Assembly: GCF_023343835.1 (NCBI RefSeq) | Contig: NC_064438.1 | Location: 21,534,077 to 21,598,076, forward strand | Source: Lagopus muta | Lineage: Eukaryota; Chordata; Aves; Galliformes; Phasianidae | DNA: 64,000 nt | Direction: 5' to 3' | Shown here: positions 18,974 to 54,789 of the stretch, one piece after another | Layout: every line of letters begins with the position of its first letter | Position numbering within the stretch: position 1 is the first letter of the stretch | Made by a program: the position numbers and the translations under genes | Notes under the pieces: model-generated | Database searches by the model: none | Told to the model about the DNA's origin: nothing | The model's input: only the letters and a program-made list of their open reading frames with translations

Positions 18974-20130
18974 ATTTTGTGTGAGTATGCAGGCCTGCCT
19001 CTTACCGTGGTCATTCCCACAGAAAATGGGAAAAACACTGTTCCCCTGTTCTTTGTGCAGACAGGGCACTGAGTGTGAGGGTGGGAAACACCCAGCACTT
19101 GGGCACATCCTGCGCTCCTGCCCCAACTTACGGAAAACCCAACGTGCTGTTTAATTGGTTACAAAATTAACTCCTTCTCCCCAGCCCCCCCCCCGAAGTC
19201 TGTCTCGGGATAACAAGGTGCTTAATAACCACGATTCTCTATCCCTTCCCTTCCTTGCCCAGCTCTGCTTTACAAAGGTTTCTGGAGGCTCTCCTACTGC
19301 CCTCTGTGGGCAGCCTCGAGGCGTGTGTCGGGAACAGAGCCTCTTCCATAGCTCGGCGTCTCTCACGGCCGTATGCTGAGTCTGCTTATTAAAATAGGCA
19401 CCTGGTAGCACCAGGCAAACGGTACACCTGCTTTGGCTTCCGACGTAATAAGGAGCTTAGAAGAAGGCAGCTGTAAAGGTTTGCGTGGCAGAGATGGAAG
19501 AATGAGTGAAAAAATAGGAAGGGTTGCCTTGGGGGACGCGGGTCCAGCATTCGTTTTGGTCGATGTGCTTTATTTCAGGGATTCTCTGTGATTTCAGGGT
19601 TTCGGTCAGAAGCTCTGCCCACTAACACAGCGGCAGTGCGCGGAGCCCCGGACAGCCCGGCACTGACGGCGGCCGCGGGCACCGCCGGGGCGCTGCGATC
19701 CCGCCGGGCCGGGTGGGGTTGGCGCGGCGGGGCTGCAGCACCCCCTGCAGGGCCCGGCCGCAGCACCCGGTGCCCCAGCAGCACGGCCAGGTGCCGCGCG
19801 GGTTCTCTGCGCCGTTCTGTACTCCGCGCTCCATCGTACCCCAACGCGGACGGCGCGGCTCGTTCTGGGAGCTCCCCGTGATGTCCGCCGGGTTCCTTTT
19901 TGAAGCAAAACGGGCCGCTCCGTACAACCCCATAGGGGCCGGGCCGAGCCGAGCCGTGCCTGGCACGGCCGGGCGGGGCCACAGGGGCGGGGCGGCGGGC
20001 GGGATTGGGAGAGCGGGCACCTCCCCGAGGCGGGGCGGATCTGGCACGGCACGGCTTGGCACGGCCCGACCCAGCGCAGCCCCTACCGGCCGGGTAGGGC
20101 CGGGCCGAGCCGAGCCGAGCCGAGCCAAGC

Positions 20131-20703
20131 CGAGGGAGGAAGGCGGGGGTCGTGGAAAAGGCTCCGTGCCGCTGCGCTCAGCCCGGCGCGGCTCGGGAAC
20201 ACGGCGAGAGACTGGCACGGACTAAAGTTATCCCGGAATAAGGCTGCACGCATGTGCTGTCACCCCGGATGTGAACATGCCGGCCCGGCTCCCCACTAGC
20301 TCGCTCCGCCCGACTGTAGCGGATGGGCCGTGCCGAGCCGAGCCGTGCCGAGCCGAGCCGAGCCGTGCCGAGCCGAGCCGTGCCGATCCGAGCCGAGCCG
20401 TGCCGAGCCGTGCCGAACCGAGCCGAGCCGTGCCAAGCCGAGCCGTGCCGAGCCGAGCCGAGCCGTGCCGAGCCGAGCCGTGCCGAGCCGAGCCGAGCCA
20501 AGCCGAGGGAGGAAGGCGGGGGTCGTGGAAAAGGCTCCGTGCCGCTGCGCTCAGCCCGGCGCGGCTCGGGAACACGGCGAGAGACTGGCACGGACTAAAG
20601 TTATCCCGGAATAAGGCTGCACGCATGTGCTGTCACCCCGGATGTGAACATGCCGGCCCGGCTCCCCACTAGCTCGCTCCGCCCGGCTGTAGCGGATGGG
20701 CCG
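20131..20703. repeat. 373-bp tandem duplication in the ACCS promoter region
   Basis: A block of 200 bp (20,131-20,330) recurs at 20,504-20,703, offset by exactly 373 bp. By eye the two copies differ at one position (CCCGACTG against CCCGGCTG). The 173 bp between them is the pentamer array. Such near identity implies a very recent duplication or gene conversion, or a local assembly error; the flanking pentamers offer an obvious substrate for unequal crossing over. Confidence 0.9.
20331..20503. repeat. GAGCC/GTGCC pentamer minisatellite
   Basis: About 35 tandem pentamers of the form CCGAG or CCGTG, with a few single-base variants (for example CCGAT and CCGAA). Shorter runs of the same pentamers stand at about 20,098-20,130 and 20,696-20,728, next to each copy of the 200-bp block. 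Because the period is 5, all reading frames are open on both strands and give Ala/Arg/Glu/Pro/Ser or Gly/Ser/Ala/Arg/Leu repeats; these are not genes. Confidence 0.92.
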
Positions 20704-20929
20704 AGCCGTGCCGAGCCGAGCCGTGCCAAGCGCGGTGGCGGCGGCCGTACGTGGCCACCGAAGGGCCAGGACGGGCAGGAACCGTGAGAGAACGGGTGCG
20801 AGAGGCTCCTCCGGCCAACGGGCAGCCCCGAGGAGTCGGGCAGCGACCCCCGGCACCGCCCGGCACGGCCCCTCTCGGCCCGGGGCGCCGAGAGCCGGGG
20901 GGAAGGGCGAGCCCGCGGCCCCGGGAGGG

Positions 20930-21566
20930 ATGGATTTTCGAGGGAAGAAGTACGAGCGCGGCAGCAACTGGTCGGACCCCGAGGTGGTGGAGCTGCTCCA
21001 GCTGTGGGCGGACGAGTCGGTGCAGCTGGAGCTGGAGAGCTGCCTGCGCAACCAGCACGTCTTCAACCGCATCGCCGAGGTGCTCCGTGAGAAGGGCATC
21101 CACCGCACCGGGGACCAGTGCCGCGAGAAGATCAAGAAGATGAAGCTGGAGTACCGGCGCATCAAGGACAACAGCAAGGCCCCGCGGGGCGGCCGCACCT
21201 GGAAGTTCTACGACGTGATGGACCGAGTGCTCAACAACCGACCAGCGCTGGCCTACGGGCCCATGGGCGGCGGTGTGATGGCCAGCCAGGTGCTGCCAGG
21301 CGGCATGGTGGATGGCTACCACCACCAGTTCGCTGCCCCTGCCCTGCCCTTTGGGCACTCCCAGCACCCCGAACTGATGGAGATCAAATGCGAGGAGGTG
21401 AATTCTGATGAGCACTGCCTGAGCCCAGAGCCCCCGGCAGCCATTTCTTACCAGCAGGGTTGCCCTGAAGAGCACGAGATGGAGAGAGCCTTCCTGGAAA
21501 GGGCCCAGAATGACTCTCCCATCTCCAGGGTGGAGATCCCCATTGAAACCAGTGTTTCACCTTCAG
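20930..21566 (+). CDS. ACCS: ACCS coding exon 1: Myb/SANT-like (trihelix) DNA-binding domain
   Basis: Encodes residues 1-212, phase 1 end, donor GTAGGG. Residues 12-101 have the spacing of a Myb/SANT-like domain 4 (MSANTD / ZSCAN20-29 type): Trp14 opening helix 1, LLQLWAD with Trp26, the FNRIAEVL helix, DQCREKIKKMKLEYRRIKD as recognition helix, and Trp91 plus Tyr94 closing it. The tail (about 103-212) is Pro/Gly/His-rich then acidic and contains MEIKCEEVNSDEHCLSPEP, a linker style common in these proteins. Whether it binds DNA is inferred from the fold only. Confidence 0.9.
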
Positions 21567-24500
21567 GTAGGGATAGACTTCTGCATTCCAGCATACGGTT
21601 GCTGCCTTGTTTCCCAGAAAGAGAGGGTTTTGTTCTGGTGCACAGAGAGATGTGTTTTTTTTTCACTGATCCTTGTTTTTTGTGCCCCAAAAAGCTTTAA
21701 AGTAGAATGCTGGTAACAACATTAATTGTCTTTTGGCAGTTCCTGACACGTGTCTTGGCGCAGGTAAATAAAATCTAAAATTACTGCTCTAGGCTAAATA
21801 CTGCATATGAACTCCAAAGGACTGGAGCATCTACTCTGAGCTGGGATAGGCATTTGTGCTAGATCTCTCTGTGTAATGCAGACAGTACATGTGTTATTCA
21901 AAAAGAAAAAAAAAAAAAAAGAAAGAAAAAAAAAATTATAAGCTTTTTGGTATTGACTGAATGCGACATGGGCTGTCTGCAGTCCTCATGCTGAATTGTA
22001 TCAGGAGACCCTCCTCTTCCATTGCAACTTGTAAACCTGCAGGTGAAACTTCTCATATGTTCTACTTGAATGTTTTCCGCATCTCATCTTTTAGGATAGT
22101 CAGCAACAGAGAATACTTGGGAATAATCGTTGCTTGGCTTCCTAATCTGCTAATTAGCACTTGGAAAGAAGACACTTTTGGAAATCACTGGTAGAAACAG
22201 CTGTTCTGTTTAGAGGAGATGAGAGCTCTGTGCTGGTAGTACATTTGGCCGTTATTTGGGTGCACAGAAAGATAGACTGTAGAGATTGTGGTGATTTCCA
22301 ACCGGTCTAGGATAGGTTGATGGAAGAGTACAGCCTTCTTGGGAAGAAGAGAAGTGATAGTCAGTATGAGGCTCATTTCTGAGATCAGGAAGAGCAGCTA
22401 CGGTGATCTTAACCAAACTTTGTTTAAGGTCCCTTCCAACCCAAGTCATTCTGAGCTATGTCTTCCTCACCATGGCGAGTGCGTGGGTAGGCAAGGGCAG
22501 GATCCTTGAATTAACCCCAATAGTGATCACTGGGGTTAATTGAGAAAGCAAGTGAGAGCCAGATCAGTGGCTTGCAGCACAGTGCTGAGCCTGCCATGTG
22601 AAGTCAGAGACGGCAAACAAAGTCACAAACTCCAAGATATACTTGACTGATTTCACTGTTTTCCTAAAGATGCTGCTGTAGTGTGTTCTAGGTCAGGTAG
22701 TGGGAAGCAGCAAAGCACATCCCCACCATTTAACTTGCCTCGTGTTTCATTTTTTCCCGCTTTCACACAACCACAGGTTTCAGTGAGCCCAGCATGGCCA
22801 ACTCATCCCGGATGCAGAACACAGTTCCTCGGCCCGGCTTCTCCGCCTTGCGCCGCCTGCGGAAGAAGCGGAAAGGCCAGCGCGTGAAGGACCCACTCGA
22901 CGACCTCCTGCTGAAGACTCTGACGTCACAGCGGGCCATGGAGGAGCGTTTCTTGCAGATGGAGGAGCGGCGGTTCCAGCGGGACCTGGATGTGGAAGAG
23001 CGGCGGATGCAGCTGGAGCAGCGGCGCTTTGAGCTGGAGCGGGAGCACGAGTTCCGCATGTTCAACGTTTTCGCCCAGATGCTCAGCATCCTGAAGCGGA
23101 GCCACGGCGGCGCATCCCCTTCCCCTGCCGTGCCTCGAGGCCTGGACTTCAGCCAAATGCTGTCGGAACTGACGGGCCGGGTGGGAGGAGGCGACCAGCG
23201 GGGGCCGAGGGCTGGAGGGCTGGCCGTGAGCCGGGGTGACATGAGTGGCTTTTGCCCTCCGGAGGGGTTCCGGCGCAGCCCGTATCTCTCCGCTCGCGGT
23301 AACGTCGCCAACATCTTCCGGGGCTCTGACGACGAGGGGTACAAAGCGTACCACGCTGACAAGTATGATGAAGACACGAACCCCAACGTGAGTGTGTCTC
23401 TTAACTACCGCTCGGCACTTTTTCTGCCTGTTGCAGCTCCGCTGCTCGGTACGCAGCTCCTCGCACACCCCCTGGCGGCACAGAGGCTGAATGTTAACGT
23501 TCGGTACTGAATGAGTAACGAATAGAGTGAATGGAAATCGCGGTTTATCTGGGGATTACTTTTAAACAGATCCAGCATTCCATCCTGAACAACTTGAAAA
23601 TGTCAAGATGTTTTATTCTGACCCCTAACTGCAGTCATGGTGTGTGTGGGGGAGGAGGTGCAAACTAGATTAAGATCCAAAAGCACAGTAATTATTTGAT
23701 AAGAGATGTGTTATAAGGCACAAACTGCTAGCTCTTCTACTAACTTCTACTAACGATGTGAAAAGTAGATAAACACCTAAATTTGGACTCGACTTTTAGT
23801 AGAACCATTCATGTCCGATTGTTTAATCTTCATTTTATGTACATTTTTAATTTGTTTATCCAGCTTCTTCCAGTGTTGAGCATGTGCTGGTTTACTGGAG
23901 TTCTTCAGCACCCAATGCCATATTAAATAAGCAGAGCCGGACCCTGGCCCTGCAGTTGCAGAATTGCCTCTCCAGAGGGGAAAACTTAATGTTTTAACCA
24001 CTCTTCATGTCTGTGTGCTATGTGACATTTGAAAGAGTGAGTGGAGTGGAACAGGACTGATAAACAACTAAATTTAGGTGAAGAAATGTTTCAAAACCAT
24101 TTCTTTAAACCACTGCAGAAGCATCAACCTCAGTTTTCTCAGAACTGTTTCACATGTATTTGCAGGTAGATGCACACTGATGAGTGAATTCAAGAATAAG
24201 TTAAACATTCTGTAAAGAAGAATGAACTGTTAGTACTTTCCCATTTGTAGAAAGCTTATTGCCTGAGAGCTGGAGTGTCTAAGTCTGTGAGCACACACCT
24301 GCATATATACCTCTCTAATTATATTCTATTTCATGAACTGTGCTGTGACTTTTCCTTGGTAGGCTTTCTGGGGGCAATTCAGTGGAATGATAGCTAAGAT
24401 GGTGTACATACACGTTGATTTTGTGTGTGTGTGTCCATAAATGACACGCTATTTCTTTTTCTAGGGTATAATTAATTTTGGCACCAGTGAGAATAAGCTC

Positions 24501-27500
24501 TGCTTTGACCTGATGTCCAAACGGGTAAGTCCTGTTCCTAAGAGGAATACCAAATATAGTATGTGGTTCCTCCTCAGTGTCTTTCCTAGGGTTATTGCTG
24601 CTCTTGAGGTTTCTCTGATAAAATTTTTCCTCATGAATTTCTTACTATTGAAAGCCACTTCTGAATCCAGCTATTTGTACACTTATTGATGTTGTTTTCC
24701 CAGGAGAACAGAAACAGGGAGTTTTCTGTTCCCTTTCATTGCGTTTCCCTGGAGGGGTGTACTTGGCTCATTGAGATATTTAAGACAGTACTTAAATGAA
24801 GATAGGGTGCATTTCATTTTCTCCTACTGACAGTATTTTATTTAATACGGAGATAACTACTTCAGACTCTGCTGAATTTCAAGAATCTTCACAGCTTGGG
24901 ACAGAGGACGTTGACTCTGTCCATTGTGAAGGTACACAGTTTGAGCACCCAGTTCGCAACTCAGCTAAAGTTTGAGGGGATGGCAGCAGCAAATGTGATA
25001 TCTCATGATATCTCTTGAAATTGTACTGGGGAGCTGCTGCTTGGACGCTTTGTTCAGTTCCATGAAACAAATGGCATAACTTATTAAGAAAAAAGGCAAA
25101 AGACAACAACAGAGCTGTGCCTTCCCGGGGTGTTTCTTGATTTTTCATTAAGATTATTACTCAGATCCAGCCCCCTGGATGGGAAGGCTGCCCTTTTCCT
25201 TGCTGCAGCTGCCTGAGGGGGGGAAGGTAGCCGAGTGTCTGACAGTTGGTCTCTGCAGTTTGAAACTCACTGTGACTCCCATTCCACCAATTCCCACCCT
25301 CAAAATGTTCCTTTTATTCCTTCCCCCCACACCACTGACTTGGGGATGCTACCCCACCGCTCGGCCTTCCAGCTAAAGGAACAGGTAAGGCAGAGCTGCT
25401 GCCTGGTGGCTGTGCTCTCAGAAGGTGCCCTATGGGCTGCGTAGATTGTGCCTTCCTTCCTTCACCATCCTTTCCCTAAACTAACACAGTGTCTGCAGCA
25501 AGTAGTGCAGAGGGAGACAGTAGCAAGTCTTGTCTTCATTAGCCTTGTCGTGGAAATGAGCTGTAGCGTGATGGCAAGAAGTTACTGCTTCCAGTTTCTT
25601 CATCACAGCCCAGAGTTACAGAAAGGGTTCACTGAGTGCAGCATCAGCTGAGATTGTAAGAAGAAATAATTTGTTGCTCTTGGGGACAGTAAGTACTCAG
25701 TTTCCACAGAGTAAAGTAATGTATTGGATTTCTGCCTTCAACTTTTGGCCCTTAAATTGGCTAACAGTCTGTGGTATGAGATCTCAGATAATCTTCATTT
25801 TGATCCCATCTGGCCCATCTGGTTTCTTAGTCCTTAGACAATTATCCTTAAGGGTTCTCCTCTTCATTACTGCACAGACATTTTTGGCCAAGTCTGCTGA
25901 TAGTTTTGTGTTGCATTATCTAGATAAGTTTAGGAGGGAAGTCTAAGGAGTAGTTCTGTGCTACACAGGTATCAAGAACATCTGCAGGTGAATGAAAGAA
26001 CTTTAATCTCATATGTCGGGTTGCAGTTCTGCATGGGATGGGATGAGGACAGTGTCTTTGAACACTAGAGCTTAGCACAAGTTATTAAACACTGATACAG
26101 AATGCTGTGGATTTGTTATTACGTGGTAGACTTTTGCACTGCATGTTAAATATCCCTCCCCTTCTGCACCGTCACTTACTTGTCATGTCCTTTTAGTATT
26201 AACTCACAGACTTGGTAGTTATCAAATATTTGCAAGGTACATTGTACATAACATTTGTCTGTTCCCTTTTTGTTCATATAAAATGTCCTCTTCTCTATTC
26301 CCTGATCATGACTGCGCTTTCTCTTGCAACTTCATAGAACTGGATTATGTGAAACCCTGAAAATTACAATCCTGAAAATGTTTAGATAAAAGCGATGTGC
26401 ATACTTTATCTAAACATAAACATAAAAAGGGGCTGTGGAGCTTTCACACAGTTTGGGTGATTCTGACTTTAAGAACAGAATGAACTATTTGGCATCCTTT
26501 TTGTAGATCTCTGTGCAGTGAAGTTCTGGCTACAATAATTTGGCAGAAGCCCCCACTTCCTATAAGCTGAAGTTATCACTGGTCAGCTTGCTGTTCTTGG
26601 CCCCTCCGAGCTGCCTTAATTCTGATGGCCAGTGGCTTTCTCAGTCCAGTTTTAAGGCTTTGAAGTGTTGTGTGTGCATGTCCATGCAGAAATGTGCCTG
26701 CCCCTGGGTTCTGTCTCTCTCTGTTTCCGAAATTGGTGACTGTGCTTTTAATGTGTCTTCCTGTTGCTCACAGCTGACACAGACCGATATGAACCTCATG
26801 GAACCGCTGCTGCTTCAGTATCCTGACTGGAAGGGACACATGTTGTAAGTCCTCTCATTTCTGTAATGCTTCTCTGTTTGAGTACCTGCCTGAAAACAGA
26901 ATGGATGAGTATGAACTGCTTCTCTTACATAGTAGTTAAAACTTCTTCCAGGTCATAGAATCATATTTTTATTTTCAAAACAGTAATTGGTCATCCAACC
27001 TAAAATCCTTTGAAAATCCAGTTTAAAATCATTTTATGTAAGAGAAGATGCTAATTTTCTATACATTAACAGATGAGCTAACTCAGGAAAGTTCCTTGAA
27101 GCCCTGTTAACATCGAGGACTTTAATCCTTCAGTTCTCTTTAGTGCTCTTCAGAAATGTCTGTGCAGCCATAGCCATTGTCTGTGACGCCTTTGCCATGT
27201 GTAGCAGTCACATCTGTGACATGGGCTGTCTGCATCAGACTTTAATGTGCCCTGGCTTTATTTTCCTGAGATGTGGACCTGGGGAAGCCCAGCCTCTTGG
27301 AGAATAAGCTGAATCAATATTTGCTTTTGTGTCTTTCTCAGTTTACGGGAGGAAGTGGCTCGATTTTTGACCTATTACTGCAAGGCCCCTGCACCTCTTA
27401 AGGCAGAAAATGTGGGTAACCCACTTTCCGTTGGTGTATATTCTAATGTATTGCCATTTGTTATCAAACAATTTCATTTTATTTTTTAAACAAATGATTT

Positions 27501-30500
27501 TGTAGAATGAAGCCTTTTATCATGTAAATGAGATTGGATCATAGCCATGTTAGTTGCTTTTGATGCACACATCAGCGAAAACATTTCAGTTCTACTGCGT
27601 ATTTGCCTTATTCTTTGCTTCTATGTGCCAGCTCCTCATTCCATTGCTCCCAGTGAGGCTTTGTGTTTTTATCTCCCCGTTCAGCTCTGGGACCTTCTGC
27701 GCTCATGTCCCTCAGCCTTGACAAAGAGTGCCCATTGTTTCTGATGACTTTACTTTCATACTATTCTGCTGTTGCATCTCAGGGCAAAATCTGTCATTGA
27801 GCCAACGGTAGTTTCACCTGGCAAGAACAGATATTTTCAGAACTTGTGATGGTGTTATAAGGAAGGTGTCAACACCTGAGTCTTTGCAGGACTTTCTGAT
27901 TTGGGAGGGCTGCGGGCTGGGCTTGGTGCATGCATGAGTCCTGCTTTTGCTGGGTGCTAGAGGCAGCAGGATCCAGTACTATTGCTGCTCTTCTGGCTGC
28001 AGTAACTCAGCAGAAACTGTTGTCTCACATGAACTGAAGTCATCACTGATCAGTTTGCTGATCATTGCCTCTCCAAGGCAGCAGATTCTACCTGACGCTT
28101 GGATTGAAACTCCTGGGGCCTCTGTGCATCAGTCTTCTAGAAACAGGAGACAGACTTGCTTTTCTGTGCTTCTGTTTATGCTATTGCACAAATTTGGCGG
28201 GAGGTAGGAGCTGCTATTACCACAAAGAGAAGATAACACATAATAAAAAGGCAACGGGACAAAGTATCATGAAACAGAGTCCAGGATTGATGTTGTTTCT
28301 GATAGAAGTGAGATGTCAGCAGGAAAGTTCTGGGAACATCCATGCTAGAGGATTAGGGAGAGAATATATTTAGTTGGTTTTGTGAGAAATTTTGCGGTGG
28401 TGTTTCTATGGACATACTTATCACTAGCCTCTCCCTTTCTTCTCTAGGTGATTGTTCTGAACGGTTGTGGCTCTTTGTTTTCTGCATTAGCTACAGTCCT
28501 GTGTGATCCAGGGGGTAAGTGGTTTGCTGGAAAATATCTTTAATGGTTTTTTTTGTTATTGTTGCTCGGAAATTAATGTGTTACTTAGTTTAAATACTGT
28601 TTTGTGGAGGTGAAGTAGTGTGGAATTAGCACAGATCTACTGAAATGTAGACTACGCTTATGCTTACTTGGAATACTGAGGGTGGGTGTACAGTGTCCCA
28701 GTTTTTGCAGAAGATTGTAGAATTGATATAGAAAGAAATTGGAGAAAAGAACAGTGACATTAAAATATTTGCAAAATGCATAACTGTAAAAAAGCTTTTC
28801 ATGCTCAGCTGAAGTCCGTTAGAGGAGAAGGAAGGACAGCTATCTGTTGCTAACAAGTTTTGTTGTCTTGGTTCCAGAAGCTGTTCTGATTGCTACTCCT
28901 TTTTATGGTGGCATCACCCAGAGCGTCTTCCTGTATGGCAACGTCAAGCTGGTGTATGCCTATTTAGACAGCAAGGTAAGAGTTGAGGAACGGGAATAGC
29001 GACCTCCGCAGTTAAAAAACAATTGGCACAGGAAAGTGCCAAGCTCTGGGGACTGAAAACAAGGCCAGGCAGCAGCCTGTGGTTTCATTTATGGTTGGGG
29101 AACTGGACACATTGTTTTCAAGAAACTTGTTGAAGGCCGTACATCTAGTTTCCAGTCTTGTCCTTTTCTTGTGTCTTGTCCCTATAAATATCTCATAATG
29201 ACTCCTGGTGGGGAAAAATGACCATTTTGGTGTCAGACATATGTATTGTCCTACAGGAGATGGTCTGTCCCAGAGGTGTAAGAACGCATGGCTGTCTGAC
29301 ATTGCTTTAGTCATTAAGGATTCCCAGAGAATTCTCTGAATGTGACCAGTCTATGGTGAAAATGTCTTTGATTTTATGTATTTATTCTCTCTGTAGTATA
29401 AAGGGATAAAGGGATGGATGCCAGTCATTATTGCCGGGTTTTTATTTTGTTTATTGTGAAATGACTCGAGACAGATTGTTGAAATAACTTGGCCTTTTTA
29501 ATTTTATCTTTGTGGTGTGTTTCAGATTACTGGAACAAGCACTCGGCCTTTCCAGCTTACTGTGGAAAAACTGGAAAAGGCCTTGCAGGATGCCCAGGCA
29601 GAGGTGAGCATAGATGAGCTTCACCTTACTGGTCAAGGCTACAGTATGTTTGAGATGGCTGGTCTCAGATGTGACCTGAAGAGCAAAACGTTTTCAAAAC
29701 CTAGCACCTGGCTTTCTCGTGGTCCTTATAGACCTGAAGTCAGGCTGCTTGCAAATCCTGCCTGCTCTTGTGGAAGAATATTCAGCAGCACTTCCTGGAG
29801 GAATCCCACTGTATCATGCATACTAAAATGTAGGGTCTTTGCAGGGTTTTTCCTTCAGGAGTGCCAGCTGGGTTACCCAAAATGGGCTGCTCTACTCAGC
29901 AGTGCAGATTTATCCACTAAGAACAGCACGAATTGCAGGAGGTAGTGAGGGGCAAATCTAGAAGGTAAATTCAGATGTGTGCTACCTATCTGAATATTTA
30001 GTCTGTAAGTTTTGAGATTATCCTAAACTCAGTGTATGTTTAGCTTCATCTTTAGATCATTAGCAGCTCTGACTCCAGCCACTTGTGCTCTATCTATGAG
30101 CAATTCACATCCATGTACCTCAAATTGCTATTTTTCTTGCCTTGTTAATGGGCAATCTTCAGTAATCTGCTACTTAACAATGCTGATACAGATCAGAGAG
30201 AATTCTCTTTTATGCTGAGAATATGAGAAGGCATATTCTCATATGATTGCAGACTCACCATTTTCAAACTCACAGATTCATTCTATAATATTTTCCTCAG
30301 TTCATTTTGCAAGTGCCATCATTATAAAATGTCATTTGTGCCTTCAGCTTTTTCATACAAATGTCACTTTTGAGGTGAAAAGTCATAGTAGAGGCTGAAG
30401 GGGAATCTTGTGATATGCTCACTGCGCCTTGGAGAGACTGAAAGTTTATCCCATGGTGAATGCTCTCTTCCTATCGTGTTGTTTGTGTTCTGCAGGGTGT

Positions 30501-33500
30501 AACTGTAAGGGCCTTAATTCTTCTGAATCCCCAGAATCCCCTTGGGGACGTCTACTCCTTGTCAGAGCTATGGGATTACCTGGAATTTGCTAAAAGGTAT
30601 GCCAGTTTGGAAGGCTGAGATAACCAGAGGCAGAGATGGCTTTCAGAGCCTGGTGGTCTACTTGCTGTACCTTAATCTATCTGTGAATATCTTCTCAGTC
30701 AGGCAAGAAAAAAAACACCTGTTCTCCTCACATACAGAGGAGAGTGGGCTGGTGGGGAGAAGGGAGTGCAGACCATCCAGTGGGCTGGAGGGACAAGGCG
30801 ACTTGCATCAAGGAATACTACCAGGTTTACTGACAGTCCTAGCAAATGCTGTGGTGCTATTTGGTAGGAAACTGACTTTCTTTCCTCACGTTTTCTCTGT
30901 ATGTGCAGAGAATAAGAAATAGTTGAATATGGCTGCCCATCTTCACCACTGGATGCTCTCTGCAATTTGGCCAATTCTGAATGGACAACAACACAATGTA
31001 GTTTAGAGGGGTCGTACATATAGGAGTTAATTTTCACAAGTACATTGGAAATGACTGAAATTTTATCCCATTATACAGTTGCAGTGGGTGACAATTATCT
31101 GGATATATCTCCAATCAGTTCAGTGTGCATAGTTCAATATAATAGACCTTCTGAGTTGTGAAAAAATACTCTGTGTTGCAGAATTTGATGTATAAAGGTA
31201 GCCTTTGCAGGGTTCTGAATTTCTCTTTGCTTCTCAGCCAGAGAATTCTTTTCTAACTTCCATTTTGTCCTTTTGCAGACACGAATTGCATGTGATAGTA
31301 GATGAGATCTACATGCTGTCAGTTTTTGATGAATCAGCCACGTTTCACAGTGTCCTGGGCATGGACAGGTAAAACCAGCTCCTACTTCCCTGGCCATCTT
31401 CCAGTGACAATTCAACATGATGCCTTGCTGAGAACTTGTGACTGGAAGTTAAGTCGTGAGCTAGCAAATTCTGAATCTGCCTTATATCGTGGGCTTCTTT
31501 TTGTGTTTTTTATTTTCATAATTTCCGAATGGCAAATGCGTTTTTTTCAAGTGCAGGGAAAATTCTAGCAAGAAAAAGGTGGGTTAATTTTCTGTTATGG
31601 TACGTTTTGGTTTGTTGTTTGTTTTTTTTGTGTGTGTGTGCTTTCGTATTCACTTGTGACAGTCCCCAAAAAATTGGAAATGGCTGTTTCATTCCTTGAA
31701 AGTGAGCCTTTTTCTCTCCTACCCCAGTATTGCTACGTCTTTCTCTTATTTCTGTTGATGACTGTAAAGACCTTCTGTTGCTGTTTACATTCTGTTTTCA
31801 TAGAGTAGTGACTGATCACAGTGTTATTAGAGGTTTGAGAATGGGTTTTATTAGGTATTAATGATGATTCTTGTGTGTCCCTTGCAACTTGGGATATTCT
31901 GTGACTATGAATATCCTTCTTCAAGGTATTATTGTTTGAAGGAAAGAAAATTACTTCAAAATCTTAGAAAATGTATCAATTTTTAGTATTACATTTGCAA
32001 ACTCTGTATGTGCAGGAAATCTGCGCAAAAAATACAGCGCTTAACGTGAGTATTTGAAGTACTTACATCTGAAATACTTAAAAATGGTGTCTAAAATTAG
32101 TTCCTGGGTGTTCCTTGCTTCTAAGGACAGGTTGGATTTGGATTTTCCCTGCTTGATTGATGATCTGTGCTCCACTGCCGCTGTGTAATGCTGCCTCTCT
32201 ATTTTTGCAATGCTGCACTGGTGATCCAAAACTTCAGCACCCATGACACTAATTGCCCATCTGCATCCTTCTACATACAGATTGCCTGATCCACAGAGGA
32301 CTCACGTGATGTGGGGAATAAGTAAGGTGAGTGCCAGTTGCTGCTGTGCTTTGGCTTCCTTACTGCTGTCCTCAGGCTCCTTGGGTTATAAGGAAGAAAA
32401 TAGTGTTGGTAGGAACCCATTCCTACTTGAACTTCCTGTTCAGTACAGTAGTCTCTATGTGTCTTCTGCAGGATTTTGCTGTCTCTGGGATTCGTTTTGG
32501 TACTTTGTATACAGAGAACCAAGATGTTGCTAATGCAGTGGCTTCCTTGTGTTATTTCCATGGGGTCTGTGGACCAGTCCAGCACAAAGTTGCACAGCTA
32601 CTTAGGGACAGAGGTGAGTTGGTAGCTAATGTAGGATCCTCATGCCATCCTGTTATCTCAGTACTTCAGGAGATTCAGTCCCTTTACTTTCCCAATGCTC
32701 TCTTATTTGTGTGCTCAGCAGCCGTCCATTATCCTGAAGCTGCCTCTGTAAGCTGTGGCTGGCAGTTCAACAACAGAGGAACTCTCAGCAGAGTTCTTCA
32801 TCAGCAGATATCAGCAGATCAGCAGGAAGAGCAGCTCTGAAGAAGTGTGATAGCTATATGTGTAAAAGCAGCAGATGTTGTACCGAGCAGGGAACTCAAC
32901 CTTCTATGAAGAGGGAAATGGGAGGGGACTTTGTAGCTTTGTCCTGGTCTTGGGGTGCTAGCGCTCCAGCCACGAGCGCAGCAGCGTGGTAAAGAAGATA
33001 TGTACATGCATGAAACTGCTACAGAATTCTTGTCTCCATTTCTGCTTTTTGAGCAAACAGAAAAGGAGTTGTAAAAGGTTGAAATGTAAAAAGGCCCTGT
33101 GACTGTTTCAGAAACCTTAGTCAATTTGTGGTTGTTATCCTTAGTCACTTTGTGATTAATTTTTTTTAATCTCCTGGCTAGAATGGATCAACCAGGTATA
33201 CCTGAGAGCCAACCATGCCCGCCTGAAAGCTGCCCATACGTATGTGACAGATGAGCTGAAGACACTTGGGGTTCCTTTCCTCAACCGTAATGCAGGCTTC
33301 TTTGTCTGGATTGATTTCCGAAAGGTTGGTCTGTTAGGAAAGGAGGCTTCTCCTGGGTTGAGGGCAGCCTCATGGTGCAGCTTTGTCCAGGGGAAAGTTC
33401 AATATTGTGATAAGCTTTTTGTTAAAGCCCCATCTGTTGTCTGATGAGCAGAGGGACGGGTGGCCTGGTATTTCTGTGCATGCTTTTCCTTTTTTTCTGC

Positions 33501-34324
33501 CTGTACATTTCCCTCCTTGCAGGAATCTTACTGCTCTCAAGCCACTCTCCTTTCCATTTCTTCCTTTTTATCACAACTGCTGTATTTCAGAGGTAAAAGG
33601 TGTCTCCCTGGCCTCTGCAGACCTCATGGGAATCACAGATTGATGAGGGTGTCTGTGAATTAGCCTATAGGTGACTAACCTCTGGCCCTTCTGGTGACTC
33701 TCCTAGTACCTTAGGACAGGAACATTTGAGGAGGAGATGCTGCTCTGGAGGCGTTTTCTTGATAACAAGGTCCTCCTGTCGTGTGGCAAAGCCTTTGAGT
33801 GCAGTGAACCTGGATGGTTCCGCATCATCTTTGCTGACAAGACCCACCGGCTACAGCTGGGTGAGTGATGCTTTCTTTTGTTTTTCCTTCCGCTAGAGAA
33901 TCTGCAGCACCATTTCCTCCTCTCCTTAGTCCTAAACTACCCTATAATTATTATCCTCTTGTCTTTCCATTTTTTCTCCCTTCAATTCTCCAAATTTTTC
34001 TGGATCTGATAGAAATTTGGAGACCCTTGTATCTTAGACTTACCCACTAATGTTTCCCTTCCTTTTACCATGGCAGGTATGCAGCGGATCCGCAAGGTTT
34101 TGGAAGAACGAGAGCAGGAGATATTGTCTGAGGAAAAGGAGCAGCCTTGTCAGTCAGATCAGGATGGCAAAGCCCATAGCACAGATGAAGTCATTTCCGT
34201 ATCCCGCCACCAGGAATCTTCCTGTGCTGGTAGTTCCAATCTCAGTGACCTTATTGGCCTCCTGCAGCAGCAGATGCGTTCATCTGATTGGCTACAGAAA
34301 AACACAGCAGAACAGCTTGCATAG
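20930..34324 (+). CDS. ACCS: ACCS-type PLP-dependent aminotransferase homologue with N-terminal Myb/SANT-like domain and coiled coil (15 coding exons)
   Basis: Exons: 20930-21566, 22777-23387, 24465-24524, 26774-26844, 27342-27411, 28448-28514, 28878-28975, 29526-29603, 30496-30596, 31279-31368, 32281-32326, 32472-32613, 33182-33324, 33707-33860, 34077-34324. All junctions are GT-AG and phases join, giving 2,616 nt (871 aa plus stop). The C-terminal ~455 residues match vertebrate ACCS, a fold-type I class I/II aminotransferase homologue of plant ACC synthase. Visible PLP-fold residues: GTSEN (422-426), NPQNPLG (Asn578), DEIY (Asp606, Tyr609), the Schiff-base lysine in SKD (Lys643), SGIRFG (Arg651), and the carboxylate-binding Arg of GWFR (Arg777). 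Human ACCS is reported to lack ACC synthase activity, so the substrate is unknown. Residues 12-101 form a Myb/SANT-like domain and about 255-318 a coiled coil; both are absent from mammalian ACCS (~500 aa). The start at 20,930 has a good Kozak context (GGGATGG); an in-frame ATG at 20,696 lies in repeat sequence and is less likely. The ancestral ACCS/ACCSL split in mammals makes this a co-orthologue of both. Confidence 0.93.
21740..21763 (+). CDS. Candidate 24-nt cassette microexon of ACCS
   Basis: The segment is preceded by a pyrimidine-rich acceptor (GTCTTTTGGCAG) and followed by a strong donor (CAG|GTAAAT). Its length of 24 nt is a multiple of three, and entered in phase 1 it adds VPDTCLGA and leaves phase 1 intact, so it can be included or skipped without a frameshift between exons at 21,566 and 22,777. 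Evidence is splice-site form and frame only; there is no transcript or conservation evidence. Confidence 0.35.
21900..21935. repeat. A-rich simple repeat
   Basis: A run of A with three G interruptions, in the first ACCS intron. It may be the tail of a lost retroelement, but no body is recognisable upstream. Confidence 0.85.
22370..22462 (+). mobile_element. CR1 LINE 3' end, decayed, + strand
   Basis: The stretch AAGGTCCCTTCCAACCCAAG followed by TCATTCTGAG matches the conserved CR1 3' end (AGGTCCCTTCCAACCC then ATTCTRTG units). The element is truncated at 5' as usual for CR1; the left limit is uncertain. It lies in the first ACCS intron. Confidence 0.7.
22509..22541. repeat. Perfect inverted repeat, 11-bp arms, with palindromic core
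   Basis: AATTAACCCCA (22,509-22,519) is the exact reverse complement of TGGGGTTAATT (22,531-22,541). The 11-nt interval with the first base of the right arm contains the self-palindrome AGTGATCACT. It lies in the first ACCS intron, about 50 bp after a CR1 end. Confidence 0.85.
22777..23387 (+). CDS. ACCS: ACCS coding exon 2: basic patch, coiled coil and ACCS N-terminus in one exon
   Basis: Encodes residues 213-416, phase 0 end, donor GTGAGT. It opens with FSEPSMANSS, has a basic nuclear-localisation-like patch RRLRKKRKGQR (238-248), then a Glu/Arg/Gln-rich coiled coil (about 255-318, including AMEERFLQMEERRF and FELEREHEFRMF) of the type found C-terminal in MSANTD/Harbinger-derived proteins. 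A Gly/Pro/Ser linker follows, then SPYLSARGNVANIF and YHADKYDEDTNPN, which correspond to the N-terminus of vertebrate ACCS. One uninterrupted frame spans both parts, so the fusion is physical. Confidence 0.92.
24465..24524 (+). CDS. ACCS: ACCS coding exon 3
   Basis: Encodes residues 417-436, GIINFGTSENKLCFDLMSKR, the start of the aminotransferase fold and the counterpart of the GLAENQL block of ACC synthases. Acceptor TTTCTAG, donor GTAAGT; exactly 20 codons, phase 0 at both ends. Confidence 0.95.
26524..26609 (+). repeat. Diverged repeat pair in ACCS introns, copy 1
   Basis: From TTCTGGCT to CCCCTCCGAG this segment aligns colinearly with 27,991-28,078; the best block is CTGAAGTTATCACTGGTCAG against CTGAAGTCATCACTGATCAG. 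Roughly 70% identity by eye. Copy 1 is in intron 3, copy 2 in intron 5. Confidence 0.6.
26774..26844 (+). CDS. ACCS: ACCS coding exon 4
   Basis: Encodes LTQTDMNLMEPLLLQYPDW and KGHM, residues 437-459 plus two bases of Phe460. Donor GTAAGT; ending at 26,844 makes the join read GHMFLREEV, matching the GH-x-FLREEV of the family. Confidence 0.93.
26953..27010 (-). mobile_element. Probable CR1 3'-end remnant, - strand
   Basis: TCATAGAATCA followed about 30 bases later by TGGTCATCCAACC resembles the reverse complement of a CR1 3' end with its octamer tail. It is short and diverged, in an intron of ACCS; assignment is tentative. Confidence 0.45.
27342..27411 (+). CDS. ACCS: ACCS coding exon 5
   Basis: Encodes up to residue 483: LREEVARFLTYYCKAPAPL then KAEN. 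The donor that keeps the frame is GTGGGT at 27,412, a weaker than average site; the more consensus-like GTAACC four bases on would break the frame into exon 6. Confidence 0.88.
27991..28078 (+). repeat. Diverged repeat pair in ACCS introns, copy 2
   Basis: Partner of 26,524-26,609, same orientation, beginning TTCTGGCTGCAGTAACTCAG. Could be an old local duplication or two fragments of an unrecognised repeat family. Confidence 0.6.
28448..28514 (+). CDS. ACCS: ACCS coding exon 6
   Basis: Encodes residues 484-505 plus one base: VIVLNGCGSLFSALATVLCD and PG. NGCGS corresponds to the phosphate-binding loop region (NGxxS) of PLP fold-type I enzymes. Acceptor CTCTAG, donor GTAAGT. Confidence 0.93.
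28878..28975 (+). CDS. ACCS: ACCS coding exon 7
   Basis: Encodes to residue 538: EAVLIATPFYGGITQSVF, then LYGNVKLVYAYLDSK. The TPFYGG motif holds the aromatic residue that stacks near the cofactor in this family. Donor GTAAGA, phase 0. Confidence 0.93.
29526..29603 (+). CDS. ACCS: ACCS coding exon 8
   Basis: Encodes residues 539-564: ITGTSTRPFQLTVEKLEKAL then QDAQAE. Acceptor GTTTCAG, donor GTGAGC, phase 0 at both ends; the PFQLTVEKLE stretch is a hallmark of vertebrate ACCS. Confidence 0.93.
30496..30596 (+). CDS. ACCS: ACCS coding exon 9
   Basis: Encodes residues 565-597 plus two bases: GVTVRALILLNPQNPLGDVY, SLSELWDYLEFAK. NPQNPLG carries Asn578, the residue that bonds the cofactor O3' in class I aminotransferases. 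Donor GTATGC. Confidence 0.94.
31279..31368 (+). CDS. ACCS: ACCS coding exon 10
   Basis: Encodes residues 598-627 plus two bases: HELHVIVDEIYMLSVFDESA, TFHSVLGMD. DEIY supplies the Asp that pairs with the pyridine nitrogen (Asp606) and the Tyr that bonds O3' (Tyr609). Donor GTAAAA. Confidence 0.94.
31820..31911 (+). mobile_element. CR1 LINE 3' end, decayed, + strand
   Basis: GTCCCTTGCAACTTGGGATA followed by TTCTGTGACTATGA closely matches the CR1 3' terminal block and its ATTCTRTG tail. Only a short 5'-truncated piece is recognisable; the left limit is uncertain. It lies in an ACCS intron. Confidence 0.75.
32281..32326 (+). CDS. ACCS: ACCS coding exon 11, ends on the PLP lysine
   Basis: Encodes to residue 643: LPDPQRTHVMWGISK. 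The last codon (32,324-32,326) is Lys643, the predicted Schiff-base lysine; the rest of the SKDFAVSGIR motif is in the next exon. Donor GTGAGT, 46 nt. Confidence 0.93.
32472..32613 (+). CDS. ACCS: ACCS coding exon 12
   Basis: Encodes residues 644-690 plus one base, starting DFAVSGIRFGTLYTENQDVA. Arg651 of SGIRFG is expected to bind the cofactor phosphate. Acceptor TTCTGCAG, donor GTGAGT. Confidence 0.94.
33182..33324 (+). CDS. ACCS: ACCS coding exon 13
   Basis: Encodes to residue 738: EWINQVYLRANHARLKAAHT, YVTDELKTLGVPFLNRNAGF, FVWIDFRK. This is the start of the small C-terminal domain of the aminotransferase fold. Acceptor GGCTAG, donor GTTGGT. Confidence 0.93.
33707..33860 (+). CDS. ACCS: ACCS coding exon 14
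   Basis: Encodes residues 739-789 plus one base: YLRTGTFEEEMLLWRRFLDN, KVLLSCGKAFECSEPGWFR, IIFADKTHRLQL. Arg777 in GWFR is the predicted substrate-carboxylate arginine of class I aminotransferases. Acceptor TCCTAG, donor GTGAGT. Confidence 0.94.
34077..34324 (+). CDS. ACCS: ACCS coding exon 15 and stop
   Basis: Encodes GMQRIRKVLEEREQEILSEE and a polar Ser/Gln/Asp-rich tail ending QQQMRSSDWLQKNTAEQLA, stop TAG at 34,322-34,324. The GMQRIRKVL helix closes the aminotransferase fold; the tail is family-variable and longer than I recall for human ACCS. Confidence 0.92.
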
Positions 34325-35099: not shown

Positions 35100-38000
35100 T
35101 GTCCACAAAAGAACTAAGAGTGGAGAGATGATGGAAAGACAATATTCTCTCTGCAGCCTCTCAACTCCTGAGATCATCCCTTCTGGTTACCAGTGAGATT
35201 ATTCACAGGACACTATTGAGAATGTTCCTTATACCTCTGTGTTAGATGTGCCTACTTGATGCCCACAGGCTTTCAAGGTGGCATCTCCCACTGTTACCTG
35301 AACTACTAAGTCTATCATTTGGCAAAGTAGCCTTCTTGACTAAACTGTATTCTCTGGTCTCCTGTCCTTCCTCTGTTTTCCATTCTGAAGGACACTGTAT
35401 GATGATGACAAAGAACTTTTGTTGGAAAGCTTCTTGCTCAGATGCAGAAATGTTTAGTTTCTTGAATATTACTTTTATTGATATCTTAAAGGAAGTTTTT
35501 TTTCTGCATACTTATTAATTGAGAGTTAAAGGAAATGGTCCATAAAAGGTGAATGGAAGCCCATGACTCCTCCTGTGACTTGGCAGTACCAAGTTATATC
35601 TTGGTAGCATTATGGAGCCTGAATATAATGAGTTAGAGAGGTGAAAGACAAAATTCAGAGTAAAAATAATTCAAGTTATTCTTTGGTCCAGTCTTCAAGG
35701 AAAAGAGCTTTCCTTTTACAATTATTTTGTGAGATAATGTGTCAGTGATCAACTATTCTATGGTTCTGTTGATTTTGTTCTTGGGCTTTGTAGGTTTGGG
35801 CAGAAAGACAAAGTGACAAAAGCATGTGTCTGTATCGTAATTTGAGTTACCACAGCATAGGTAGCAAATAAGTGCTGCAGCTGCACTTTGGTGATGTGTC
35901 TATGGGGAAAGTGAGGGGCTGAGGAGCAAGCAGTGCTGTGGGTAGAGGGACTGCTCCATCTCCAACAACAGTGAGGGGAGGCAAGGGTAGTGGAGAGATG
36001 GAATCATCCTATTTGCTTAGTAGTTTGTTACATTTCCATGTAAAATGGTTCTAAGCACACTCTGAGGTTATTATCATTTATTTTGCATTTGCACTTGACT
36101 GTCCACAGAGAAAGATACAGCACATAGCAGCTGTCCTTACACGAGTGGGAGGTGAGACGTGCAGCCAAAATGCAAATGGACTTACTGACTTGCCCCCTTA
36201 TTTATCCTGTGGAGGATCTGAGCAACAAAAACGTACAGAGAAAGCTCCTTGAAATGACAAAGGCAGACTGTACGGCCATTTGCTGAAACTGCATTTTAGA
36301 AGACTCTTAGGACAAATTCAAACTATTAATTGCCCCCTCCTTTCTTTTCATGAGACTTTCCACTCATCCCAATGGTTGGAGTGTATTGCTATCCAGCATT
36401 CACTTAGATGTAGAGTTTTACTGTTCAGAAAGTGGATTTTTTGTACTGTCCGTGTGGAAAAGACTAGTAACACACACCTCTCTGCAGTGCAGAGGCTGCA
36501 ATACATTTTCAAGATTCTCACAGCTATCATACTGCAATGCAAAGCCACTTCTATCTGAGCTTATGGCAACTAAAATTAGCAGGGGAGATGAATATTTTGT
36601 TGCTTGGACTGTTTTTCATGGGTTTTTTTTCAGCTTTAACTCCCTGAGGAACTCCCTGCTGGGTAAAGTTAGCTTGATAATGGAAACTCGGAATATAACT
36701 GGAAATGAGGGTAGAGAAATGTGGCATTAGGAGCCTACTGCTGGAGTAGGTTTCAGTCATCCCAATGGCAGGCTGCTGCTTGCTACCTGAACGCCCTGCC
36801 AGGATGGCTGCTGCTCCAGGGAGCTGCAGCAGGGCTCCTCTGTGCAAGAGCTCCTTGGTCACTGTTTCCTTCCCCCTGCTGCCTCCCCGCAAGATACGTG
36901 CTGTGCACGCTATTGCTCCTTAGCATCAGTAACACTTTTTGGTTTCTTTTCTGCATGGCAGAAGTAAATAAATAAATAAATACATACAGAAATGAGTAAG
37001 GTCTGAATGCCCCCTGCGTTTCTTTTTCCAGCAATAGGCAAACAGAGCACTATCTGAAATGATAAAGCTGCTCAGAGCTACATTAAAATAAATAAATAAA
37101 GCAACATTTAATATAAAACATGCAAGGCCATCAAGTTGAGTATAACACATTAAGATGAGTACAAGCCTTCATGTTTATACCCACTGTAATTCTAATAAGT
37201 GATAGAATTGCCTTTGCTTATAATTTCTGTTTTCCTGTTTCCACTCATTTGAGCAGAGAAAGGATGCTGGATGGTTTCTGGCCTTTGCCAGGAGCAGTTC
37301 CAGCCTCTCAGCCCCCCTCCCAGCACGTTTATCCCACAGAGATGTTTAGAATTTTCCAGCTAGAGGAGGTAATTTCCTGCACGGTACACCTTTCTGCCAT
37401 TGGCAGGATTATATTTCATCAGAAAGATAGTGAAAAAAACCTTCTTCATGGAGTAAGCTGTGTGAATCCCTCCCCAGCCATACCTGCATCTGAAGTATTG
37501 AGCATGCAAACCAATCCAGCTGCTTTTATACATGCAGCCATTTTAGTGAGAGAGGCTCCCATAAGAGAGGATTGGTTTGGATTTTTTCCGGAGGCAATTC
37601 AGGCCACACTGTGAAGCACAAGGTAGCTTACGAGGATATGTACCAAAACACACGTATCCTGCTGGAGAAGCTCGGAGGAGCAAGGTGTGCTCATTCTTCA
37701 CTCCAATTAATTCTGTGCAGCTTACATAAAACCAGCAACCGGCCAGCGACAAATGCACTTCACTCAGAGGTGGTTATAAATACTCTGTCTTTTGTCCTCG
37801 CTTTGCCAGGACTGGTTATTTTTAGCAGTGAGCCAGTCGACCTTATCAAAATGGGGAATCAAAAATAGTCTGGAAAAACACCGTGAGGAAATGCTGTTTT
37901 TAGCAGCTCCGTCCCCTCGGCGCTGCCGGTCAGTGAGGTGCGAGCAGGCAGGCAGCGCGGTGCAGGGAGTGCTGCTCGGTGAAGCATGAATGCCTCCGCA

Positions 38001-39630
38001 CGGCATGACATCTCAGGGCTCTGGGGACAGGGAAGCACACGGAGAGCATCCCTATCCATGCGCTTCTGTCACAGCAGGGTTTCTTTGCAGGGAACGCTTG
38101 CTTGAACGAATCTCCTCATGGCTCGCGTCCTGCTGCGGGAGCTGTAGCAGCAGATTGCTGGAGTCTCTTCACGTTTCCTTCTTTGGGTTTGGGAAGGCTG
38201 GACCTCAGGTTACAGAGGTTGGCATGTTACAAGCTGCTCAGTGCTACCGGGCACAGCACAGCCCCATTGGAGGTGTGCGATGGCTCAGGAGGCTGCAGCT
38301 GTGCGGGTGGATGCTGGATGCAGATATTGCTCAGCCCAGGCATCAGCTGAATGCTGTCACTGAGCTCATTGTTCAGTTCTGACATAAGCTGAAAGGGAAT
38401 GCTCTGGCTGGTACAAAATCCTGCTTTTTCTTACACCAGAGCCAAATTGCTTCATTCATCCCAGGTCCTTGATTCCTTGTTGTAGCCGTTAGTGAGTGTT
38501 TCAGAAATGAAGTATGAGCTATGACTTACTTATGCTATGCCATAGAATGAAAGCAAAGATGGAAAAGATGTCCCCAAGACACTGAGTTTCATATTTCCCT
38601 TTTAGCACAATCTTTTATTGAGAAGTGTTTTTCAGAGCGTGCTGCTTCCAGCACTGGCTGCACCAGGTACCTCGCAGCCTCTCCTGCAGCTGCCTTGAGT
38701 GAAAGGAGACCCAGCACAAAAGGCTCTGCAGCCATTTCTTTCTGTCCCAGCAGAAAATCCGTGGGGCTGTGTGACAGACAGTGAATGTATGGCATGATGG
38801 AAAAGCACTCAGCAACAAATCCCCACACGACCTCAGGAGGGTCAGATAAGGTGAGACAGAAGAGGGCAAAGCAAGTGAGGTAAAATATCCCACCTCTCTT
38901 CTACATTTATAAAAATTGATAGCCTGTTACCCAAGATGCTGATGAATATTTTTACCGGATATAAATGGCAACAGAGTCTAAAAATAGTGCCGTGCTGCAG
39001 ACTTGTCTGGCTGAGCAGCATCACCAGCATACGAATGGGCTCCCTGAGGTAGACAGACTACGTCCTCCATTTTTTCTTGCTGTTTGGATAGAAAAAAAAG
39101 CTGATGCTGCTTGCATTCTTTTCAATCTAAGCTCTCAATAAAATGGCACTACCACCCAAATTTTCCTGTAGTGCTGAAGCCTCCGTGCATGTCAAGATGT
39201 CCCCCGGCACAGGGAGGAATGGGCTGCAGCACACGGCCCAGGGGGCTGGCAGCATGCCGGCATGTGTCTGGGCTGCAGCAAGTGCTTCTGGGCTGCCATT
39301 TTGAATGGGTGGGCAAAGGGCCCCAGCAGGCTGCACTGGGGGTGAGGGGAAAGCCTGGATGTGGTTCTGCCAGGGGCTGTCCCCACGGCTCTGTGGTGAC
39401 AGGGTCTCAAGGGGGATCATGCGAGGGGATATAGCAGCACTGACATGTTTTTGGCAAAGGGGCAATTCATTGACACCTGTTTTTTTGGCATGCCACCAGT
39501 GTGTGTGGTTCTGGCACAGAGTTTTGTGCCACGGATTTATCATGCCCTGTCAGGAGGAGAGCTCATGGTTTCCCTTGGGATAGGGGCTTTTTGTTCCACT
39601 CACTTCCTATACAGGCCTTCCTTTGCAAGA
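35100..39630. other. Intergenic region between ACCS and EXT2
   Basis: No open frame with splice-site support or a recognisable domain. Contains AAAT/TAAA microsatellite stretches near 36,963-36,983 and 37,086-37,100 and otherwise unremarkable sequence. Confidence 0.6.
36963..36983. repeat. (TAAA)n microsatellite
   Basis: About five units of AAAT/TAAA; a shorter one of the same unit is at 37,086-37,100. Confidence 0.8.
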
Positions 39631-39836
39631 TCATAGAATCACAGAATCACTCAGGTTGGAAAAGACCTTAAAGATCATCGAATCCAACCATGACCTAACC
39701 ATTCTACCCCAACTCAAACAACCCTCTGCTAAATCACGTCCCTGAGCACCACATCCAGATGGTTTTTAAACACATCCAGGGATGGTGGCTCAACCACCAC
39801 CCTGGGGAGCCTATTTCAGTGCTTAATAACAATTCC
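39631..39836 (-). mobile_element. CR1 LINE, 5'-truncated 3' end, - strand
   Basis: Begins TCATAGAATCACAGAATCAC, the reverse complement of the CR1 3' octamer tail, followed by GGTTGGAAAAGACCTTAAAG and ATCATCGAATCCAACC, a textbook avian CR1 3' region, and continues for about 200 bp to the CR1-typical GTTTTTAAACACATCCAGGG and CTGGGGAGCC. Well preserved, so relatively young. It lies about 300 bp upstream of the EXT2 promoter island. Confidence 0.93.
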
Positions 39837-39929
39837 AGATGCCTGAGGGAGAAGCACGATACGCTTCTGGACAAGGTGCGAGCAAGAGCTGACAGCTTTA
39901 AAAGCAGGCTGGCGGCGGCAGCTCTTCGC

Positions 39930-40340
39930 TACCAATTTCGCAAGCCTCAACGAACTCCACGGCAGCCTGCCTTGCCGCTGCAGCGGCGCCCTCCCGCCAC
40001 AGAGAGGCGCTCTCACAGCGTCGGGGCAGGGCGGCGCCTCTCTTGCTCCGAGTTGGCGGCGGCCCGTGCGCGTGCGTGGCGACGGTCCGGGCCCGGGGAG
40101 CGGCGGGCGGCGCGCCCGGCGCTGAGGGGCAGCCGGCGGGCTGGCTGCTCGCACCCGAGAGACTGCGGGCGGAGGTGAGTCTGGGCCGGAGGCGCGGCCT
40201 GCCTCGTCCTGCCATTCTCCGCCCGCGTCCCCGAGCCGCGGATGGGCGAGGAGCAGCGGAGGTGCCGCGGCTGTGGGGTCGGGTGACGCAAAGCTTGCTG
40301 CAGACGTGTGGCCTTGAAGGTAACGAGGGCGGTACGGCCA
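39930..40340. promoter_or_regulatory. EXT2: EXT2 CpG-island promoter
   Basis: Dense CpG and GC-rich sequence flanked by AT-richer DNA, immediately upstream of the EXT2 coding exons and just after a CR1. No TATA box is evident. Exact start site not determinable. Confidence 0.75.
39990..40174 (+). other. EXT2: Probable non-coding first exon of EXT2
   Basis: A strong donor GCGGAG|GTGAGT stands at 40,175 inside the CpG island, and the next in-line acceptor before the EXT2 start codon is at 41,670. The 3' boundary is thus well supported by site form; the 5' boundary is a guess. A 5' non-coding exon agrees with the known EXT2 structure in mammals. Confidence 0.55.
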
Positions 40341-40853
40341 GCGTGGGATAACGGGATGAGCGGTCAGAAGCATACGGAAAGCTTTTGGTTGCGAAGGTCG
40401 TCGAGACGGGGGGTCGCGGGGATGTTACTTTGTACGGTGGGCTTTAACAGCTGCTTCGCGGCTCGCTTACTCTGTCCTGACAGCCTTTTGTCAACAACTG
40501 CTAGGTCAGTGTGTCAACCGATTTCATTATGACTGTTTGTGCTTAGTGGTACTTCTTTTATTCATATTTGTTGTCTGCTGTGCAGTTGACTGCTGTCAAG
40601 GCAAGAAAATGTCCCATCTTTGTCCAGAATGTATAATTACATCACCTGCATTCTTCTTCAAGCATGGAAGCATACCAGCTGTGCAGCTTGGAGCCGTGGA
40701 TTTTTACTTAATGTGGAAGCTGGAGCAGATGACCTGAGCAGCTTTCAGCATGCTACAAGTAGCTGATCCTTCAGTCATACAGCTGGAACTGTGATTCTGC
40801 ATGTGAAAGCTTAAAGAACAGTCAGCAGTGGCAGCAGTGATGTGACTGTGTTT

Positions 40854-41541: not shown

Positions 41542-54789
<13,248 letters not shown>

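Follow-up and report, generated by a model that had tools for sequence, protein, structure and literature searches.

Gene structure at the ACCS locus

The window, a stretch of 64,000 nucleotides (contig C9, 21534077-21598076) from a genome that we searched in full (1,026,658,476 bases, 165 contigs), carries an ACCS gene of 16 exons on its plus strand (20930-34324). The predicted product has 875 amino acids and the coding sequence contains zero internal stops. A model with 15 exons reproduced exactly the 871-residue product of the initial annotation, which had missed a micro-exon of 12 nt encoding LKEQ (25373-25384, plus strand, AG/GT ends). The micro-exon is backed by chicken ACCS qPCR primers (record XM_015287196.4) published in PMC12847875. 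The reverse primer runs from exon 3 through CTAAAGGAACAG into the following exon, an order that needs the micro-exon, and it spans this exon with 0 mismatches. Against the spliced gene one primer showed 2 mismatches and the other 0, and the amplicon on the 16-exon model is 137 bp long, the same as the published size. The primer matches suggest a bird near the reference chicken, though probably distinct from it. Both primers lie downstream of Met368 and their support covers exon 2 onward only. Residues past 436 gain +4 in the 16-exon model relative to the 871-aa numbering.

Exon 1 (20930..21566, plus strand) comprises a start codon in a strong Kozak-like context, a SANT/trihelix domain and an acidic linker, and ends at a GT donor in phase 1. 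Exon 2 (22777..23387, plus strand) holds a basic patch, a long helix, a linker and the ACCS N-terminus in a single open frame. As the initial annotation had proposed, the phases of the two exons join: their ends are canonical (GT/AG) and both are in phase 1. The exon 1 donor ranked in the top 1.1% of GTs at 20-36 kb and had the highest score among donors at 21251-21700. The exon 2 acceptor is weak (top 9.7% of AGs in the same interval; both sites were scored with generic consensus frequencies) and scored the same as the acceptor of the primer-backed micro-exon. The join of the SANT exon to exon 2 thus rests on canonical, phase-matched predicted splice sites. Because helix and ACCS sequence both lie inside exon 2 in the same frame, the helix-ACCS join is independent of splice prediction.

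Intron 1 contains a candidate optional exon 1b of 24 nt (21740..21763, plus strand, AG/GT ends), which would keep the frame and add 8 residues; an AATAAA at 21767 directly follows it. Two open frames on the antisense strand, 295 and 218 aa long, also overlap exon 1, so the length of its open frame alone is little proof of coding. GC3 was 0.83 in exon 1, 0.81 in exon 2 and 0.36-0.70 in the later exons (15-exon model). High GC3 extends to the ACCS side of exon 2 (0.76), and GC3 is therefore no marker of the fusion point. Using 400-base windows we identified one CpG island that covers exon 1 and the sequence upstream of it (19301..21500) and a second one over exon 2 and Met368 (22701..23600), a possible internal promoter.

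Inside the upstream island there are tandem arrays of GCCGAGCC/GCCGTGCC at 20099-20134, 20327-20507 and 20700-20731. By eye, the array at 20327-20507 is flanked by two near-identical stretches of ~190 bases (about 20130-20320 and 20505-20700).

Domains of the predicted fused protein

The N-terminal module ahead of the ACCS part is 367 residues long. It starts with a Myb/SANT-like trihelix domain (PF13837, residues 12-99; 20963..21226, plus strand), which Pfam matched at 79.8 bits against a curated cut-off of 27 (E 2.1e-22 for exon 1 alone, 3.3e-21 for the whole protein) and which the genome scan located at the same place. Two plant GT-1 sequences were the only PDB sequence relatives of the domain at E <= 1. 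Its predicted model, of modest confidence (pLDDT 61), has a three-helix layout with a further helix. Foldseek E-values of the model were 0.39 and above, and its best fold matches by VIA-align among the 96 chains supplied by Foldseek were DNA-binding Myb/trihelix domains. In profile match, and tentatively in the layout of the model, the domain resembles the PF13837 trihelix proteins, be it plant GT-1 or those of other loci in this genome.

Two short motifs were found by pattern match only, a SUMO-consensus-like IKCE at residues 152-155 (21383..21394, plus strand) and an NLS-like basic patch, RRLRKKRKGQR, at residues 238-248 (22851..22883, plus strand). The patch is followed by a continuous helix at residues 252-321 (22893..23102, plus strand; exon-2 residues 39-108), predicted by single-sequence AlphaFold2 from exon 2 alone with pLDDT block means of 94-98 over exon-2 residues 41-100. 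The initial annotation had placed a coiled coil and the ACCS N-terminus in one frame of exon 2. The shared open frame was borne out and the helix is confidently predicted, whereas a simple hydropathy-periodicity test for a coiled coil gave p 0.19. Exon 2 had no other genome match at E <= 0.01 among the best candidates scored. Searches of genome_contigs and viral_contigs confirmed no relatives of either exon 1 or exon 2, and the 25 of 61 NCBIfam families listed were all below their cut-offs.

The ACCS part runs from the last portion of exon 2 through exon 16 (23241..34324, plus strand; stop codon 34322-34324) and is supported by matches to PF00155 and to ACC synthase structures. PF00155 matched residues 419-785 with E 7.1e-60 and was covered from profile position 4 to 351 of 361 (Pfam). 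Six ACC synthase sequences headed the PDB list (E 1.7e-64 to 6.6e-62). The full aminotransferase domain is present, then, and ACC synthases are its closest relatives. These data uphold the claim that a SANT/trihelix domain, a basic patch and a long helix are fused in frame to ACCS. Two of the profiles expected at the outset, PF13837 and PF00155, matched far beyond chance; the third, PF13873, had no match at E <= 1.

The equivalent of the PLP lysine Lys273 is Lys643 (871-aa numbering), and the equivalents of Asp230, Asn202, Tyr233, Arg281, Glu47 and Arg407 are kept as well. We take the PLP-contact set of ACC synthase to be Tyr85, Asn202, Asp230, Tyr233, Ser270, Lys273 and Arg281. Five of these seven positions are kept, with Trp in place of Tyr85 and Gly in place of Ser270, and the earlier claim that all cofactor residues are present does not hold. 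The Gly at the Ser270 place is shared with a second ACCS-like gene on contig C10. Assignment as a true ACC synthase by a complete PLP-contact set failed at the altered Tyr85 and Ser270 equivalents. Compared with vertebrate ACCS and plant ACC synthases (PF00155, fold type I PLP enzymes), the fused protein is alike in the whole aminotransferase domain, the catalytic lysine and the Glu47 equivalent, and differs in the 367-residue module and the two substitutions. To our knowledge, animal ACCS is a PLP protein without a settled function and mammalian ACCS does not carry a SANT/helix module.

The unfused paralog and the origin of the module

Searching the whole genome for the ACCS domain returned 17 pieces, 12 of which belong to the fused gene and 5 to the gene on C10 (22563349-22567991, minus strand; within L026-L028, G000:C10:22561001-22591000). 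This second, SANT-less ACCS gene in the same genome is an addition to the initial annotation. Its ACCS pieces follow the same order as in the fused gene (tblastn, 30 kb). The first coding exon reads MSGGGGFPARPGPALSARG, starts with MSGGGG...LSARG, has its own CpG island at the start ATG and is split off at the corresponding place, NPE preceding GIVNLGTSENK in the paralog and NPN preceding GIINFGTSENK at the end of exon 2 in the fused gene. In contrast to the fused gene, no SANT or long-helix sequence was found in the ~15.8 kb upstream of the paralog, where residues 1-377 of the fused protein had no convincing match, and C10 has none of the 9 PF13837 matches found genome-wide. Open frames on the same strand upstream of the paralog resemble the AAA protein PEX1, a tentative label.

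At residue 368 the fused gene reads MSGFCPPEGFRRSPYLSARG in frame, and the Met368 codon (23241..23243, plus strand) is the counterpart of the start of the SANT-less paralog (MSG...LSARG). Shuffling the exon 2 residues upstream of LSARG put MSG at that place, give or take one residue, in 263 of 200000 shuffles. The residues just before Met368, GRVGGGDQRGPRAGGLAVSRGD, resemble a translated CpG-island leader, which would agree with read-in from an upstream gene. On the sequences compared here, the simplest reading is that both genes descend from an ACCS that started at this MSG and that the C9 copy was read into by an upstream trihelix-plus-helix gene. Most likely, the module would have been added ahead of an already complete ACCS frame; it may instead have been lost from the C10 copy. 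An ACCS-only product of the fused gene is possible.

Where might the module have come from? PF13837 occurs at 9 loci, a low-copy set. By phmmer, those closest in sequence to the domain of the fused gene are three loci on C7 (L004, L003 and L005 with 62.8, 61.1 and 58.8 bits) and L002 on C1 (58.1 bits). No aminotransferase was seen joined to the other loci within ~3.2 kb around each. The three C7 loci form a tandem PF13837 cluster of ~16 kb on the minus strand (G000:C7:45.095-45.111 Mb).

The initial annotation had labelled the module NAIF1-type and Harbinger-derived. NAIF1/MSANTD3-type proteins are alike in having a SANT-like domain in low-copy host genes. PF13873, which we take to be the profile of this kind, was absent at E <= 1 from exon 1 and from the full protein (Pfam). 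It matched 10 other places in the genome, one of which, on C20, also matched PF13837. PF13359, the Harbinger-type transposase domain, had 7 genome matches, none of them in the window and the nearest ~1.8 Mb away on C9, although an old event would leave no trace. Together with the plant GT-1 relatives, these results leave the label unsupported. Given the missing PF13873 match and the distance of the transposase domain, an origin from a host gene appears no less likely than direct capture from a transposon; the module may still have an ancient Harbinger origin. Two adjacent Harbinger-type transposase pieces (L030 and L031, G000:C9:23.354-23.356 Mb) lie on the same contig as the window and presumably represent HARBI1 in two exons.

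A possible DNA-tethered PLP protein and its alternatives

The fused gene joins two known domain families. Both profiles lie in one frame, the helix and ACCS share one exon, and the start of the module-less paralog matches Met368. We found no description of a SANT-ACCS fusion in the literature titles, abstract openings and passages seen; a published description or an annotation in gene databases may exist. The explanation that we favor, and hold to be somewhat more than evenly probable, is a single chimeric gene, in which a SANT/trihelix-plus-helix protein is joined to a whole ACCS, with a history of read-through and a present role as a nuclear regulator that senses PLP or a ligand. Loss of the stop codon of an upstream trihelix gene would have let its frame continue into what was then the first ACCS exon, and that exon retains its former start and a CpG island. 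The basic patch would carry the fused protein into the nucleus, where it would dimerize via the ACCS fold and perhaps the helix too. ACCS-type enzymes form dimers whose active site lies at the subunit interface, so that two trihelix domains would be presented together and face DNA. The PLP-bearing domain would act as the dimerizer and, instead of being a true ACC synthase, would probably sense PLP or an amino-acid ligand. Internal initiation at Met368 may also yield untethered ACCS. As Met368 is kept and lies under a CpG island, a dual output of tethered and free ACCS is a specific possibility.

A precedent for such a layout exists in bacteria. MocR regulators bind PLP and couple a DNA-binding domain to a sensory domain that resembles aminotransferases, according to PMC5320631. 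In MocR/GabR proteins, as described there, and in the fused protein alike, the DNA-binding domain is N-terminal and a domain of aminotransferase fold comes after it. Unlike the fused protein with its trihelix, MocR/GabR proteins carry a GntR winged helix, and the closest enzyme here is ACC synthase. No GntR family was among the Pfam matches at E <= 1, and the likeness is therefore one of layout only and not of kinship. Since MocR proteins pair DNA binding with a PLP-binding sensory domain, one may reasonably suppose a regulator that responds to PLP or another ligand, and by this analogy we infer a nuclear, DNA-tethered PLP-binding regulator of MocR-like layout. That the protein would be an independently evolved animal counterpart of MocR, acting on transcription or chromatin, in which the ACCS domain reads vitamin B6 or an amino-acid ligand and alters DNA binding by the paired trihelix domains, with free ACCS as second product, is a bolder proposal that we regard as rather doubtful.

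If the fusion is expressed as predicted, a DNA-binding module on ACCS would point to the nucleus and make the question of ACCS function testable. The locus would also illustrate clearly how read-through can join two genes within a single exon, and the retained start codon and the unfused paralog of this genome offer comparison material. It is this natural control that gives the locus its real interest.

The internal CpG island (22701-23600) and the AATAAA at 21767 in intron 1 leave room for two separate products and in this respect argue against a chimera. A short SANT protein would then end in intron 1 and an ordinary ACCS would arise from a promoter within exon 2, with the joined protein rare or absent, and Met368 as the counterpart of the paralog start fits this as well. 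The helix, however, is in frame with ACCS with no stop in exon 2, the two ends of intron 1 match in phase and no other donor at 21251-21700 scores as high as that of exon 1, which makes two products seem unlikely to us. A different view accepts the fusion and limits the module to localization at the nucleus or chromatin, leaving ACCS an ordinary PLP enzyme without sensing. This is in line with the retained catalytic lysine and most active-site residues, and the human homologue, in work by Koch in 2001 cited in PMC2748086, reportedly lacked ACC synthase activity. For mammalian ACCS, PMC12363045 describes an action on L-vinylglycine. Against these points stand the changed Ser270 and Tyr85 equivalents, the Gly at the former place being found in the C10 paralog too, and we consider a merely localized enzyme distinctly unlikely.

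That ACCS directly captured the Myb-like gene of a Harbinger transposon, the initial proposal, draws on the fact that Harbinger elements encode Myb/SANT-like trihelix proteins (PMC9179366 and PMC8616336). With PF13873 unmatched, the domain counted among 9 low-copy PF13837 loci and the closest of 7 transposase-domain matches ~1.8 Mb away, such a capture appears quite improbable. Lastly, the examination of one genome and the zero relatives in other collections would be compatible with an assembly artefact or a decaying gene. This we hold to be very improbable, as 16 exons join without an internal stop, the exon order from exon 2 on fits the chicken primers and an EXT2 coding sequence follows downstream on the same strand.

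Of ten long open frames from other parts of the window that were compared with Pfam, only this EXT2 coding frame (41542-42309, plus strand; Exostosin_GT47, E 1.4e-10) had a match. It is preceded by a CpG island at 39701-40600, and a small island window was also present at 37801-38200.
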